DNA of 64,000 nucleotides from Leucogyrophana mollusca. Its lineage: Eukaryota > Basidiomycota > Agaricomycetes > Boletales. The DNA is taken from the NCBI GenBank assembly GCA_021014945.1, contig MU266334.1, positions 36,005-100,004 of the forward strand, written 5' to 3'. Below the pieces are notes generated by a model. It ran no database searches, was not told the origin of the DNA, and saw only the letters and a list, made by a program, of their open reading frames with translations. The first letter of the stretch is position 1, and each line of letters starts with the position of its first letter. Below are positions 27,243 to 35,275 of the stretch, piece by piece. A program made the position numbers and the translations under genes.

Positions 27243-29705
27243 CTACGTCGCAAAATCATCTGCCACTCTCAACATAAGCGGCACCTGCGACGTCTTGCCA
27301 TCTCCCGCGGGGGGGAGCACAACAGGTATTTGAAGGCCATTCATTTTCCAGTAGATCTCCTTGACGTCAGGGGAAGGAAGGGCAAAGTGGATTCGGGGAA
27401 TCAGGGTCGTTAGAACTTGTTCTGCGCAGACGTGCAGAGTTAGTATGTGCAGAAGGAGGAGACGCTGCACTGACTGATCTCCATTTCTGCGAACTTGAAG
27501 CCACTGGACAGGGACGGGTATTGTCAGCCACAGGCTCTTTGGGGACAGTGAAACAATGAACGTACATGCAAGCACGACCACCGCCGAGGAACGTCATCCT
27601 GCCCATTTGAGTGGATCAGACACGCGTTCGTTTGGGAATGAGCAGGGGAAACACACATGGACGCATACACTCCAGGATACTTCACGCCATCCTTGACACC
27701 CGGGGTCTTCTCCCCTCCTTCATTGACACCTTCATCCCCATATGTCCCGTCCCCCACACTCCCCTGTATCCGCTCCCCCGAGGACGTGAGCCACCGCTCA
27801 GGTCTCCACTCACCTGCATCGGCGCCCCACAGCTCCTTATTGCGGTTCGCGGCGAGGATGGATATGAAGAGCGTCGTTCCCTCGGGAACCGGCATGTTTG
27901 ATACCATAGAGCCCGATGCGGACCGGACGGGAGAATGCAAAGGGAGGGTAGTGGGCTGGCGAGCTCTGCATGAGATAAAGTGAGCCTCGCACGCTGAAGG
28001 ATAGAGGTAAGGGGCTTACACGCGACTTAGTAACGAGGTCGGCGGATACAAGCGGAGGGTTTCGCGAACAATGGCATCGAGGTATGGAATGCTCATGAGA
28101 ACATCATAAGGCAGGTCGATATCCCGCCACCTTTCTGGCTCGCCCTGAGACTCTGCATAGTCGCGCTTCGCTTGGGCGATCTCGCGCCGCAGCCGAGCCT
28201 GCACTTCAGGCTTGTCGGCAAGAATCCAAAGTGTTCGACAGATTGCGGAGGTGGTTGTCTCTATGGCAGCAAAAATGATCGTGCTGCGGGAAAAACGAAA
28301 TGTGTAAAGTTTTATCAGAGGCAACCAGGAGAGAGCACCCACTTCATCTGCCCGAGAAGTTCTGAATCTGTCAGCCTGTCCGTTTCAGATGATGAGGTGT
28401 TTGCTTTCACTACAATGGATTGTTCAAGTAAGAAACGCAGATTATTTCCGAACCCAAGCCACATACGCATGATACTCATGATATCCTTTCCTTTCATACG
28501 TGCACGCAAGCTATTGGGGTTGTCCTCGGTTATGTCGCCCGCGGCCATCGCGGCTTTCTTCTCCTCGAAGATTCTCCGACTGGCAGAATCCATGATGTTC
28601 ACGAGCCGCCGTATTTCCTTCAGCGCATCAATAGGCAGCCAATCCATTAACTTGTTCCTCCAGTAGAGAGAGAGATGGCGCATGACGAATGGCACGAACG
28701 GACGCAAGAAGACGAGGCGGAGGGTTGTCGGCCTGCACATCGTCGAACAGGTCACGGGCCATTAACAGAAGAGGCGGAGAAACAACACACGCTAGGACTC
28801 TCATCGCTTCTACGTATTCCTCCTCTTTACTCAGCTCCAGAGCGTCAAACGAATGCCCTATCGCGGCCTGGGAGATATACTCGAGAGCACCACGGGTGAG
28901 CAAGGGCAACACATTGATCTCAGTTGCAGCTACAGCATGGATGAGACCCGAGCCGATAGGTGGAACATAGTCACTTACATCCGTCGGTAGCTAGCTGTGA
29001 AAGCAGTATTTGAGCCAATTTCCCTGCGATTGGTTGGATGATGGGGAGAAGTTCGCGCATGTTCGCGAGGGAGAACACCGGATTGAGCATTTTGCGTTGT
29101 TTCCTATGCTGTTCCCCTGCCACCCAGCAATCAGCCTTACAACGTTGGCAAGAGGCCACGACTGGATTACCGAGTGTTGAAATGAGACCATCGCCAAAGA
29201 TAAGCCGGTTTCCCCTTTGCACGAAGATCGGGCTTCAGCACGAATCGAGACGCAGGTAACCAACGTACATGATAAACATGTCGGTCTCCTCCCAAATGTG
29301 CTGGTCTTTCACGATAATGTGATGCATCGCGCGGGGATCCGACACGTACAGCTGCTCTTGCTGAACATTTCGGTGTTAGTCCACGCAAATGACGACCGGA
29401 GTTGGCAGCAGCTCACTCCGAGAACCCCATAAAATTTCAGCACACCACCGTATTTTTCCACAAGCTCTAGGTTATATTGCAGACCATCTTGAACTAGCCT
29501 GTGGATGTTGCCTATACAATCGTAACGGTGCACATTGTCAACGGAACGCAGAAACCGGCGGGGGATCAGACTGACCTGTGAACCAATGTTCTTTGGTCGG
29601 TCCTAAAATGTTGGCCAAGGACGATTTAGGTGCTGTCAGTCTTCTCACCAGTTTCCACAAGAGGAATGCCGCGAATCCAGATCCAACCAGTCGCAGCAAC
29701 GCCAT
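27243..29705 (-). CDS. Cytochrome P450 monooxygenase
   Basis: Microsomal P450 with more than ten exons. It starts MALLRLVGSGFAAFLLWKLV (ATG 29705; exon 1 to 29576), an ER membrane anchor, followed by the GPTKEHWFTG hinge. Landmarks in order: GEQHRKQRKMLNPVFS (C-helix WxxxR region, with QHRKQR), YISQAAIGHSFDAL, EKKAAMAAGD, GKDIMSIL, the I-helix FAAIETTTSAI, the ExxR motif ETLR, the EWRPERW motif, the heme loop MTFLGGGRAC with the ligand Cys, and EIYWKMNGLQIPVV near the C-terminus. The I-helix reads A-A-x-E-T-T where A-G-x-D-T-T is usual. All introns resolve in frame, so the gene looks functional. Substrate unknown. It sits about 2.4 kb from a UstYa/precursor pair and could act in the same pathway, but P450s are common in these genomes. 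Confidence 0.88.
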
Positions 29706-30538
29706 GATGTATGGAAGAGACTTGGTTAAAAATCTGCTTCACAAACGGAACAACGAACAAAGCTACGTGTGTCACTTTGATCACTGATGGACGTAGTGTG
29801 GGCGTGTAGTTCGGCTTATGAACCTGGACTTGGGCTCGGAGATTTCCTCGCGCAGAAAAAGAATAGGTGCGGATATGACCTGGCAAGGGGAAACCATGGG
29901 ATACAGCTACTTATCTTGTCACTGCAACTTTTCGGCGTCCTGATCAAGGTCACACACAACAGCTATTTGACGCGGCGAAGGAAACTAACAATCGGGCTCG
30001 GACGAGCCCGCCAGCCCATATGCCGCGGAGGTTGAATCGATAGCGGCGTGTACGAAACTGTCTAGGTTCAGTTCTCTTGCATCTTATTTCAGTCTTCATA
30101 TCTTTTTGATACTTGCAGACCATGAGGTTGGCATCAGCGCTCAAGCGCCCAAATTCGCCCAAATGACCGTTCCCTACGTGTTCTTACGCCCTCGTTCCCA
30201 ATGTGGCCGCTCTGAGTCCTGCACTTTAACTTTTTGCATATCCAAAGGCGTCCGGTACGTGACGGTAACGCCGTTCTGATCGCGGTGCATTGCACCCAGC
30301 AGCTCCAGCCACGACCCCACTAAAGTTCCTTATTAACTCATGGGGCCAAAATTCCATAAATAACAGCGGAGTAGACGTGTTCCATATGGCCACGGGTACT
30401 TGATCATCAGCGGTGAGAAGCCGCCTCAATGAGGCTGGCCAAGTCGAGTGTCTATCCGGGCTTGCGCACCCCCGTTGCCCCAACCCTTCTTACCACCTCA
30501 ACTCCTCTTCACTCTCCGTATACCTATCACTGTGTGCC
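29706..30538. other. Divergent intergenic region, P450 and 7TM genes
   Basis: Upstream DNA of two divergently transcribed genes. Small frames only; no coding motif recognised. Confidence 0.45.
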
Positions 30539-32067: not shown

Positions 32068-32779
32068 CTACTCAAGCGGTATGCTCGGATGATCCAGCAT
32101 ATACTGCCGCAACATGGTCCAATCCCTACACCTATGCACCGAACCCACCCCGTTCGCGGTGTGGACAAGCTTCCCGTCTTCCGGTGATCTCTGTGGTATA
32201 TCCACCTCGAGTGTGGTATCAGAATGACAGAGTACAGCCTGCCGGAGATATCGCAGACAGTGCTGGATATGCTCAGCTGCGTGCGTTCCGTTCACTACAT
32301 ATCCGACGCGGATGATGTCGAGACAATGGAACTGGTGGTATACGGAAAGAAGGAAAGTACGGTTGTTGGGCCCAAGGGAAATAAACCCGTCGGAGGGGAA
32401 GAGTGTGCCCCATTCATCGTCATCGTTGAGGGAAAAGTGGTCCTCACCGCTTTCGAGGGCGAGCCCAACGGGAGGAAGCCGTACTGGAAGTTGGGAGGGG
32501 AAATCATCTCCTTCGTATGCTAGTGCGAATTGCCTTAGGCACGAGACAGCTTAGGCGTGAACAGGTGCACTTACTATACTCCCGTGTCGGTGGAAGCAAT
32601 TGCTTCATCAGAGCAACGCTGTAGAAGGTGAACATGACATTGGCGAAAGTGACGATTGCGAGGACACAAATGCAAGCTATGGCTGCATTAGGTGGCCCAC
32701 CACGTCTTAGAGATGCAGACACAGCGTTATTCCGATGGGACGCCAGCGAACCATTGGGACCTCGGGAAACCAGCGACAT
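32068..32779 (-). CDS. UstYa-family (DUF3328) oxidase with both HxxHC motifs
   Basis: Two exons (32779-32575, 32519-32068) give 218 residues. A cytosolic N-terminus is followed by one transmembrane helix at about 33-54 (AIACICVLAIVTFANVMFTF). A lumenal domain follows with YEGDDFPSQLP (70-80), EWGTLFPSDGFISLGPNNR, the first motif HQFHC (130-134), the second HIQHC (152-156), the linker RYLRQAVLCHSDTTLE and HRCRDW near 197. Both HxxHC motifs, which define UstYa proteins, are intact. Ascomycete UstYa/UstYb-type proteins carry out oxidative cyclisation of ribosomal peptide precursors (ustiloxin, asperipin) and some other natural products. The repeat precursor 1.5 kb away fits such a role. The plus-strand frame 32224-32523 is an antisense shadow. 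Confidence 0.9.
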
Positions 32780-33420
32780 TGTGACGGGGTTGAAAGTTAA
32801 ACCAGATGCGGAGAGCTTGAGGGGTTTATGGCCACTTTGTGGGCCGCCACTCGGCTGCGCAGAAATCCTTGTCACTATATCCGGGTATAGCCTTCTCAGG
32901 AAGTGCCACCAGTAGGGTTCTCGAGCGGCCTGTTGATACTGATTTTGATGCCGAGGCGCTGAGGAGACTATGGGAACCGCACAGACTGAGCATCAGTATG
33001 ATACCGAGTTGGAGCCTGAAGAGGAAATTCTCATATTTCATTTCGCTCTAACCTCGATGGTTCCGGAACAAATACTTGTCCACTGACTCGCGAATAACGC
33101 GGTGTCGGTGTACAATTTTTTCCATCAAGCACCGTCTGTGGGTTGTCCTGATCAGTACACAGCATCGGAACAGAGTCACCATAAGATATATTTAGACCTA
33201 TGTGGAACCTTTAGCACAGGGTTGATCCGTTACCGTGGAATGGCTTCGATGGAATCTGTCATATACATGAAAGTAGGCCGCCAGAATCACATATATATTG
33301 ACGTACCCCTCACCTAGACACTTTGTTCCCCTTTACATTGTGCAAGGTGAGCGTCACAGCATTTCACACATTCTGATCATCTGAAAGAATAGAGTTCAGT
33401 GTTATCCGTCTGCCATTCCC
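32780..33420. promoter_or_regulatory. Divergent promoter region, UstYa and short-TM genes
   Basis: 641 bp between two divergent starts, a layout that would allow joint control. A minus-strand frame (33041-32826, hydrophobic N-terminus MKYENFLFRLQLGIIL) lies inside it and is probably 5' UTR or noise. Confidence 0.4.
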
Positions 33421-33732
33421 ATGATGCTGAGCATATTAAACAACTTCGGATACACTCCCCTCGCGCAGGAACTCGGCGCCGAGGAGAACGTGAAGGAAGA
33501 CGACACCGCATTCTCCAACACCCTTGAGGTTCGCCCGCGAGGCGGGTTTGCGGATTTATACTCGTCTCCGACGTTCCTCGCCGTCGTCCTATTCGCATTA
33601 CTCGCGATAAACGCACTCTGCTTTGCGACAACGATACGCCAGATGAACCAAGTCACAAAAGCGTTACAGCCACACTTGGACTTTATCGAGACTCGTAATC
33701 TGCCCCGCCCCGATCAATACAATGGATTGTGA
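33421..33732 (+). CDS. Short single-TM protein beside UstYa (103 aa)
   Basis: Uninterrupted frame starting MMLSILNNFGYTPLAQ (a second ATG directly follows the first). The N-terminal 48 residues are acidic and polar, a helix at about 51-70 (TFLAVVLFALLAINALCFAT) follows, and the tail QVTKALQPHLDFIE leads to the C-terminus TRNLPRPDQYNGL. The layout (short cytosolic part, one helix, short lumenal part) copies the first third of UstYa proteins but lacks any HxxHC motif. From memory, similar short proteins ending in an LPRPD-Y-GL motif occur in Agaricomycetes, often near UstYa genes; I could not check this. It may be a UstYa partner, a truncated UstYa, or an unrelated membrane peptide. Confidence 0.6.
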   Translation: MMLSILNNFGYTPLAQELGAEENVKEDDTAFSNTLEVRPRGGFADLYSSPTFLAVVLFALLAINALCFATTIRQMNQVTKALQPHLDFIETRNLPRPDQYNGL

Positions 33733-34280
33733 TAAATATAGAAGATGTGATGTGATGCATACCTCAGGCTGAAGTGCATGCATAAACATTTTGTCTGTCG
33801 TCAGGATATGCAATGGCCCAGAAATGTGCATCCTTGTGGTGCTATCTGGAATCGAAGTCGGACTTAGACCCCTTCTACCCCCGCGGCGGCGCCCGCTTCT
33901 AACGCTATGAGAGTCAAACGAGAACAAGCTATTTTCATGGCAAGGTCACAGCACCTTAAGTACAACAGCCATACGAGTAACCTGGGCAGGAAGGCTCCAT
34001 GCTGGGCTTGTCGATACATATTTAGCACGCTATGATGGGACGGCCAGCCCTTGAGTCCATAGCCAGCCCCTGCCTGTGTTCGAATAGTGAACTGTACTGC
34101 CTGGGATCATTCCTCAGGACACCGCTCAATTGATGTGTTAGGGTACCGAACTTTCGCACAATTCTCCGCAGACAGACCTGTTCCATGAAGGGGTATATAA
34201 AGTAGACCGAAAGAGTTCTGGGTGATCAGTGCGTCAGTCCACCTTTGATCCAGCTCCACACTATCATCGGCTTACTGACC
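33733..34280. other. Intergenic upstream of the repeat precursor
   Basis: Holds the promoter of the precursor. A clear TATATAA at 34194-34200 lies 81 bp before the start codon. No gene recognised. Confidence 0.45.
34194..34200 (+). promoter_or_regulatory. TATA box of the precursor gene
   Basis: GGGTATATAAAG sits 81 bp upstream of the ATG at 34281. The strong TATA suits a regulated, highly expressed gene. Confidence 0.6.
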
Positions 34281-34945
34281 ATGTGTCGCCCCACATCACT
34301 GTTCTGCGCTATTTTGCTTGCTTCATCTGCTATCAGCAGCCCAATCAATGGTGCAGGTGGGTAGCTCTGCTTAGATGCGTGGTCGTGTGCCTTCATGAGA
34401 TGACATAAATTATATAGTAATACGGAGTGCCGACGAACCTGAAACTAGCCCTGTCGCAGGTCTGCTGTGGGCGGGGAATGTCCACCAGGAAGTATCTCAT
34501 CGCGAGGGTCAGTGACGGCTATGTTGTTAGTCTTCATCCGTCCATAACTCGACCACTTTTCGCAGTTGATGAATCTACACCGGAAGCTCAAACCACTGCA
34601 GTTGCTGGAGCGCTGTGGCGGAATCACGTCCATCAGGAGGTATCTCCTCGTGGTGGGTAGTACTATTGGGATCAGCCCTCGATGCACAAGGTGACCATTT
34701 CCACAGCCGTAAGTTCTACAGCGACGACAGCGGCGACAACGGCCACAGTGTATCCCGGTGCGCTCTGGCGAAACCGCGTCCACGCGGAAATCTCCCCCCG
34801 CCAAGGTCAGTGCAAGCCAAGATGCTGGCATATGCAAAATCTGAACTTTGGCACAATAGCAACAAGTGAGCCAGAGACCACGCCAGTTCCTGGAGCCCTC
34901 TGGCAGAAACATGTCCACGAGGAAGTATCCGCCCGCGATGGCTAG
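34281..34945 (+). CDS. Secreted repeat precursor, candidate RiPP precursor (four exon-borne repeats)
   Basis: Five exons (34281-34356, 34418-34507, 34566-34652, 34707-34805, 34860-34945) give 145 residues. Exon 1 encodes a signal peptide (MCRPTSLFCAILLASSAISS). Each later exon encodes one repeat: Ser/Thr/Pro-rich spacer, then GLLWAGNVHQEVSHR, GALWRNHVHQEVSPR, GALWRNRVHAEISPR and GALWQKHVHEEVSAR. The consensus is G-[AL]-L-W-x3-V-H-x-E-[VI]-S-x-R. All four introns are phase 1 (50-60 nt), so each repeat exon can be duplicated or lost without a frame change. There are no cysteines in the repeats. Each unit ends in a single Arg (HR, PR, PR, AR), not Lys-Arg, so classic Kex2 processing is not obvious, although Kex2 can also cut after Pro-Arg. 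With a UstYa gene next door it looks like a dikaritin-like precursor. The alternative is a secreted repeat protein with another role. Acceptor choice in exon 4 is uncertain. Confidence 0.75.
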
Positions 34946-34964
34946 TTATGTACACAGATTCTGC

Positions 34965-35275
34965 CCCGGGAACGCTCCGGCGGGGCCATGTATACCAGGA
35001 AGTGTCCCCTCGCGATGGTCAGCTGTAGCCCGAGAATTCGTTACTTATACTCTCGATATCTAATATCATTGACATATGTCGTTCCCCGTTCCGCGCCAAG
35101 GTACGCCAGATGTAAAAGTGATTGCGCAGGCAGCAAAGAATTTACTGTTTGGTTGTACGTCCTTGCGGATCGAAGAGGTCCTTGTAGATCGAAGCGAGGT
35201 ACCGAGCCGCTGGTATCATAATATAAATTATAAGCCCGCGGCTGGCGTCTGTCAGGAGGTATCGTGTGGGGGGCA
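34965..35275 (+). repeat. Decayed extra precursor repeat units after the stop
   Basis: After the TAG at 34943-34945, a fifth unit is readable at about 34965-35017 (HVYQEVSPRD, followed by a GTCAGC donor). A last, more damaged one lies near 35235-35275 (GVCQEVSCGG). The site where unit 4 should splice onward reads G/GCTAGT instead of G/GTNNGT, and only 17 nt separate it from the next acceptor-like CAG. The frame therefore runs into the stop. These units appear to have been cut off from the gene by loss of a donor and most of an intron. Confidence 0.6.

Follow-up and report, generated by a model that had tools for sequence, protein, structure and literature searches.

Does a UstYa-family gene that lies head-to-head with a gene for a probably secreted repeat peptide in Leucogyrophana mollusca act on that peptide, or are the two unrelated neighbours? 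An earlier note on the window (the whole stretch of 64,000 nucleotides analysed here) had read the pair as a candidate RiPP locus. UstYa proteins belong to the DUF3328 family, and passages of PMC12435403 describe its members as dimers that associate with membranes, hold a binuclear copper site and use O2, with hydroxylation, halogenation and macrocyclisation among the reactions of the family. We examined the structure of both genes, used the genome (32.3 Mb in 545 contigs) as its own control for their linkage, and weighed the RiPP reading against three others.

The UstYa gene and the repeat precursor

The exon-2 frame of the UstYa gene matches PF11807 over residues 65-154 (Pfam, 3.9e-17), with 63.3 bits against a curated cut-off of 25. 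Removal of the intron at 32574-32520 (GTAAGT..CACTAG) yields 218 residues that are letter-for-letter identical to the NCBI record BV22DRAFT_1001130 of L. mollusca (Boletales); this two-exon model is one of several, with three other intron choices listed. The product contains the HxxHC(x)nHxxHC motif, and the residue numbers given for its two halves in the earlier note, 130-134 and 152-156, are right. Both motif cysteines are invariant and the four histidines are kept in at least 90% of 49 aligned relatives. A C-terminal segment around Cys199 is conserved in the same alignment nearly to the level of the copper motifs. The predicted structure (mean pLDDT 80.8, pTM 0.66) has helices at 30-61, 127-145 and 150-167, that is, a long N-terminal helix and the two helices of the motif, with a short loop between them. 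Sequence and fold searches gave no meaningful PDB match, and the UstYa alignment found no relative among viral and genome contigs.

Table 1 Features of the UstYa/precursor region, in window coordinates
Feature	Position	Strand	Description
UstYa-family (DUF3328) gene	32068..32779	-	exons 32779-32575 + 32519-32068; 218 aa; TM helix, two HxxHC motifs
Single-TM ORF, 103 aa, between UstYa and precursor	33421..33732	+	candidate ORF, ends NLPRPDQYNGL
Precursor exon 1	34281..34356	+	leader MCRPTSLFCAILLASSAISSPINGA
Precursor exon 2	34418..34507	+	repeat GLLWAGNVHQEVSHR
Precursor exon 3	34566..34652	+	repeat GALWRNHVHQEVSPR
Precursor exon 4	34707..34805	+	repeat GALWRNRVHAEISPR
Precursor exon 5	34860..34945	+	repeat GALWQKHVHEEVSAR, stop
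Decayed fifth repeat, past stop, outside gene model	34969..35013	+	GTLRRGHVYQEVSPR; Trp lost

In a set of 88 database proteins, identity to the window UstYa is 89% for Hygrophoropsis, 84% for Rhizopogon and for Suillus lakei, close to 70% for Boletus, Paxillus and Scleroderma, and 45-72% across several further orders, which places the Agaricomycete relatives at 45-89% over many orders. Judged from these sequences, it is a widely conserved gene and not visibly specific to a cluster. It is the only UstYa match on its contig, C8. The closest UstYa elsewhere in the genome by score lies on C499 (44% over 147 residues), and that on C391 is 51% identical over 82 residues.

The precursor gene runs on the opposite strand, its start codon 1.5 kb from that of UstYa, and is predicted to encode 145 residues in five exons (Table 1): a hydrophobic leader, in which a signal peptide was judged by eye and by hydrophobicity, followed by four units. 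Its introns of 61, 58, 54 and 54 nt are GT-AG and all in phase 1, in a splice set that was chosen for consistency among other possible donors and acceptors. Since the internal exons measure 90, 87 and 99 nt, the gain or loss of one would leave the reading frame intact. Each unit begins with an acidic, Ser/Thr/Pro-rich half and closes with a repeat of 15 residues, G-[AL]-L-W-x3-V-H-x-E-[VI]-S-x-R, one per exon and at the exon end. All four units of the spliced precursor end in S-[PHA]-R, with a single Arg. Dibasic Kex2 sites are a defining feature of KEPs; neither KR nor RR occurs anywhere in the spliced precursor, and the repeat has no Tyr. The splice model upholds the five exons, the 1.5 kb distance and the four single-Arg repeats that had been proposed; the block end at 35275 lies beyond the modelled gene, which stops at 34945.

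In the window the back-translated G-x-L-W-x3-V-H pattern occurs four times against an expectation of 0.02, and none of 100 shuffles reaches four. The repeats are therefore not a product of chance. When these four and two from a paralogue are pooled (15 pairs, non-independent and with synonymous sites near saturation), pS is 0.69 and pN 0.30, a synonymous bias that points to constraint at the protein level. A precursor search over 173 candidates returned solely the window's own ORF. That protein databases lack the precursor is weak evidence, given how its coding sequence is broken up into short exons.

The cytochrome P450 gene that had been noted beside the pair is recognised by Pfam on two exon frames (27524-29710, minus strand), whereas its 7TM neighbour has no Pfam match. 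The 103-residue TM ORF between the two genes has no relative in this genome or in the protein database and was rejected for that reason as a UstYa partner. Pfam scans of 26 window ORFs turned up no tyrosinase, methyltransferase or peptidase.

A paralogue and the genome-wide layout

A second precursor lies on contig C52 (G000:C52:56024; L020 4625-5005), where a hydrophobic leader exon is followed by two exons with one repeat each (GNLWKNKVHESLSTG and GALWKSNVHQEVSPK), separated by phase-1 introns of 55 and 56 nt. The exon build is that of the window precursor and the DNA has diverged; the first unit has no Arg end and the last ends in Lys. This paralogue, the strongest support, and the synonymous bias argue that the precursor gene is real. 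The 142-kb contig of the paralogue carries no PF11807 match, which puts linkage of this precursor type to UstYa at one gene in two. Roughly 1.3 kb upstream of this gene, at L020 3219-3290, is a decayed unit, SPVAGVLWRGAVCES. Over the whole genome the G-x-L-W-x3-V-H pattern has 24 matches against 11 in a reversed control, and six of the 24 belong to the two known genes. A further five (on C11, C492, C95, C83 and C225) were rejected as repeats, none scoring above 11.8; scoring covered these and the known six, and a third gene is possible among the remaining 13. Relatives on viral contigs (L016/L017) were likewise rejected, with a best motif score of 11.8, where the six repeats score 39.3-51.6.

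The genome has 35 PF11807 matches on 17 contigs, or 27 loci when matches within 1.5 kb are merged. We inspected 18 further UstYa-bearing stretches, leaving out the match on C19. Half of them (9/18) carry a leader ending in Lys-Arg, or once in Glu-Arg, found with a motif that picked up some evident false hits as well. When 11 UstYa matches in the remaining stretches were scanned more loosely for hydrophobicity, leaders ending in Ala-Arg came up on C289 and C193, along with false hits at most other UstYa matches; the UstYa segments on these two contigs are identical. Searched over the whole genome, a pattern built from the leader ends already found has 14 matches and none in the reversed control, and 13 of the 14 lie on UstYa-bearing contigs. 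The other match, C58:81604-81630 (G000), lies on a contig with no UstYa match and may be an orphan precursor.

Nine of the ten precursor candidates closer than 3 kb to a UstYa match are arranged head-to-head with it at 1.1-2.4 kb (the C364 pair of candidates was included manually, and the C41:127149 match lies just at the cut-off), the exception being C270:14640, which is tail-to-tail at 2.9 kb. The pairs on C289 and C193 are also head-to-head and bring the counterparts to eleven, two of them near-identical. With a head-to-head arrangement and 1.9 kb measured to the UstYa domain match, the window pair thus follows the UstYa/precursor layout of this genome. A tree of 15 short UstYa rows left 10 of its 11 inner branches open and included a spurious frame on a very long branch, and it is used here only for the identity of the C289 and C193 segments.

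Clean unit exons occur on C364 only; C391 allows a tentative model, C41, C86 and C270 give pieces and C47 none, in lists that were filtered for phase 1 and a junction Arg and so cannot alone establish phase 1 as a rule. The two C364 precursors (L021 2350-3089 and L022 1137-2392, both on the minus strand), each head-to-head with a UstYa gene, splice cleanly into 57-nt phase-1 exons with one unit per exon, and their introns of 48-60 nt have CAG or TAG acceptors. The first has at least four units of the form ...NLFVYDYKR before masked bases follow, and the second has ten listed units ...LLSYDY[VE]RR, the last of which ends at the listed exon. Both appear to be dikaritin-like, with Tyr cores. On C391 (L031 3746-5655, plus strand) a leader precedes a tandem array with a period of 168 near a UstYa gene. 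The tentative model of this array has eleven 33-nt exons, YDITGGD[IV]E[KTAI]R, and needs AAG acceptors and introns of 125-137 nt; the residue before Arg is Lys in two of the eleven units and Thr, Ala or Ile in the other nine. Single-Arg ends as a rule of the genome were rejected, as the C364 units splice to KR and RR, and the precedents come down to C391, under its tentative model, and the leader ends of C289 and C193. A leader intron that splits an Arg codon proved weak as a hallmark, since the listing was restricted to phase-1 donors and every CGT codon provides such a site; with no phase filter, 10 of 11 leaders have an Arg-codon donor, often beside other donors.

Readings of the locus

The pair is best explained as a dikaritin-like RiPP locus whose core holds Trp and His and whose units end in a single Arg, a reading to which we give an even chance. 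Our confidence was slightly lowered when a recount of the C364 unit ends weakened the precedent for single-Arg ends. The gene structures, the motif conservation and the head-to-head layout are direct observations; the pathway built on them would run as follows. The precursor would enter the secretory pathway, where an endoprotease (Kex2 acting at single Arg, or a similar enzyme) would cut after S-[PHA]-R. Recognition would fall to the acidic, Ser/Thr/Pro-rich first half of each unit, and the membrane-anchored UstYa, with its copper site, would oxidise the conserved L-W-x3-V-H segment, where oxidation is likely to take place at the invariant Leu, Trp, Val and His. The oxidation may be a cross-link, a hydroxylation or a desaturation, and the peptide would be secreted.

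This RiPP reading is favoured by the constrained repeats, the paralogue of the same build, a UstYa with all six motif residues and two modelled motif helices, and the layout found within the genome. The small chance of such proximity, the one-unit exons of C364, the single-Arg cleavage reported for mushroom KEPs and the copper chemistry reported for DUF3328 proteins also speak for it. It is opposed by the unlinked C52 paralogue, with its first unit lacking an Arg end and its last ending in Lys, by the lack of dibasic sites and of Tyr, and by the few single-Arg precedents in the genome. Also against it, UstYa is widely conserved while a relative of the precursor was not found, and the enzymes sought were absent from the 26 ORFs scanned. 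Of the RiPP locus as first proposed, the parts and the layout, with eleven counterparts, are sustained; linkage in one of two genes, the missing dibasic sites and a UstYa not visibly specific to a cluster count against it.

The same observations bear on a second reading, which is possible but doubtful: the gene may encode linear, unmodified peptides that are released at single Arg and act as signals or small effectors, with UstYa serving another substrate and its adjacency an accident. The C52 paralogue, on a contig with no UstYa match, fits this, as does a UstYa conserved far more widely than the precursor has been found. Passages of a 1461-strain survey of KEPs and their DUF3328 linkage across fungi, which place DUF3328 genes near 103 of 1680 basidiomycete KEPs and so leave 94% without one nearby, point the same way (PMC7329392). 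An accidental adjacency, however, has to be set against the layout shared with the other UstYa/precursor pairs of the genome and against the chance of proximity, a random point falling near one of the 27 UstYa loci in ~0.3% of cases within 1.6 kb and ~0.8% within 5 kb, in a finding that was itself picked for proximity.

We consider it unlikely that the product is instead a small, secreted and largely disordered protein that stays uncut, with the W/V-H repeats as binding motifs of the intact chain. The absence of dibasic sites, a first paralogue unit with no basic end and the Ser/Thr/Pro-rich linkers that space the repeats would suit such a protein, but each of the four repeats in the window closes its exon with Arg, as a cut unit would. 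A decaying or untranscribed gene with no product is very improbable, for the decayed repeats past the stop and upstream of the C52 paralogue stand against four intact repeat exons, consistent splice sites and a pN well under pS.

If the RiPP reading is taken further, the genome, and perhaps the Boletales at large, may use a syntax missed by annotation, in which a UstYa gene lies head-to-head with a precursor built of symmetric phase-1 exons with one core each. The window pair would then represent a new chemical class, its Leu-Trp-x3-Val-His core oxidised by an Agaricomycete-conserved UstYa and freed at single Arg. We put this forward as speculation that is rather unlikely to hold in full; if it did, the conservation of UstYa across Agaricomycetes would mean that such peptides may exist in many mushrooms. 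One unit per short exon could hide precursors from gene callers and repeat finders. Passages of the survey suggest a different cyclisation factor or little cyclisation as reasons for the few DUF3328-linked KEPs (PMC7329392), and the exon-per-unit build, if it is general, would be a third. This build may be the wider result, and with the window pair a Trp/His repeat joins the possible UstYa substrates.

Comparison with known systems

Published accounts give partial parallels. The words "intron" and "exon" are absent from the main text of PMC7329392, PMC6339444 and PMC12048977, and we found no account of exon-per-core precursors in the open-access literature, a search that most subscription papers fall outside. 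Coprinopsis KEPs expressed in P. pastoris gave products seemingly cut at single Arg, according to parts of PMC9769878, and sections of PMC8893723 report 16 UstYa-like genes in Pleurotus, six of them developmentally expressed. Passages of a lichen study describe UstY genes with no repeated precursor beside them, which it calls a mystery; the same passages list a tyrosinase, a methyltransferase, several DUF3328 genes and a transporter or peptidase for dikaritin clusters, and functional clusters that lack some of these (PMC12048977).

The dikaritins ustiloxin, phomopsin and asperipin-2a share with the window a leader and repeated units beside a UstYa (DUF3328) gene. The window differs from them in having no dibasic Kex2 sites, Trp/His in place of Tyr in the repeat, one UstYa on the contig, no tyrosinase in the scanned ORFs and units on separate exons. 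Among basidiomycete KEPs, the Trp-containing type P-3 of Umemura, for which parts of PMC7329392 give DUF3328 nearby in four of seven, is alike in its leader, repeats, Trp and UstYa linkage in part of the cases; compared by description and not by sequence, the window differs in repeats that end in single Arg. The UstYa-linked precursors of the same genome (C364, C391, C41, C47, C86 and C270) are alike in their head-to-head arrangement at 1.1-2.4 kb, and those of C364 also in one unit per phase-1 exon, although the C364 units end in KR or RR. Unlike the window precursor, these have leaders ending in Lys-Arg (once Glu-Arg) and, on C364 and C391, Tyr cores, and their UstYa proteins differ from that of the window. 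The most distant parallel, drawn in passages of PMC12435403, is with the plant BURP-domain peptide cyclases, which are also four-His copper enzymes that cross-link ribosomal peptides and belong to another protein family and another kingdom.
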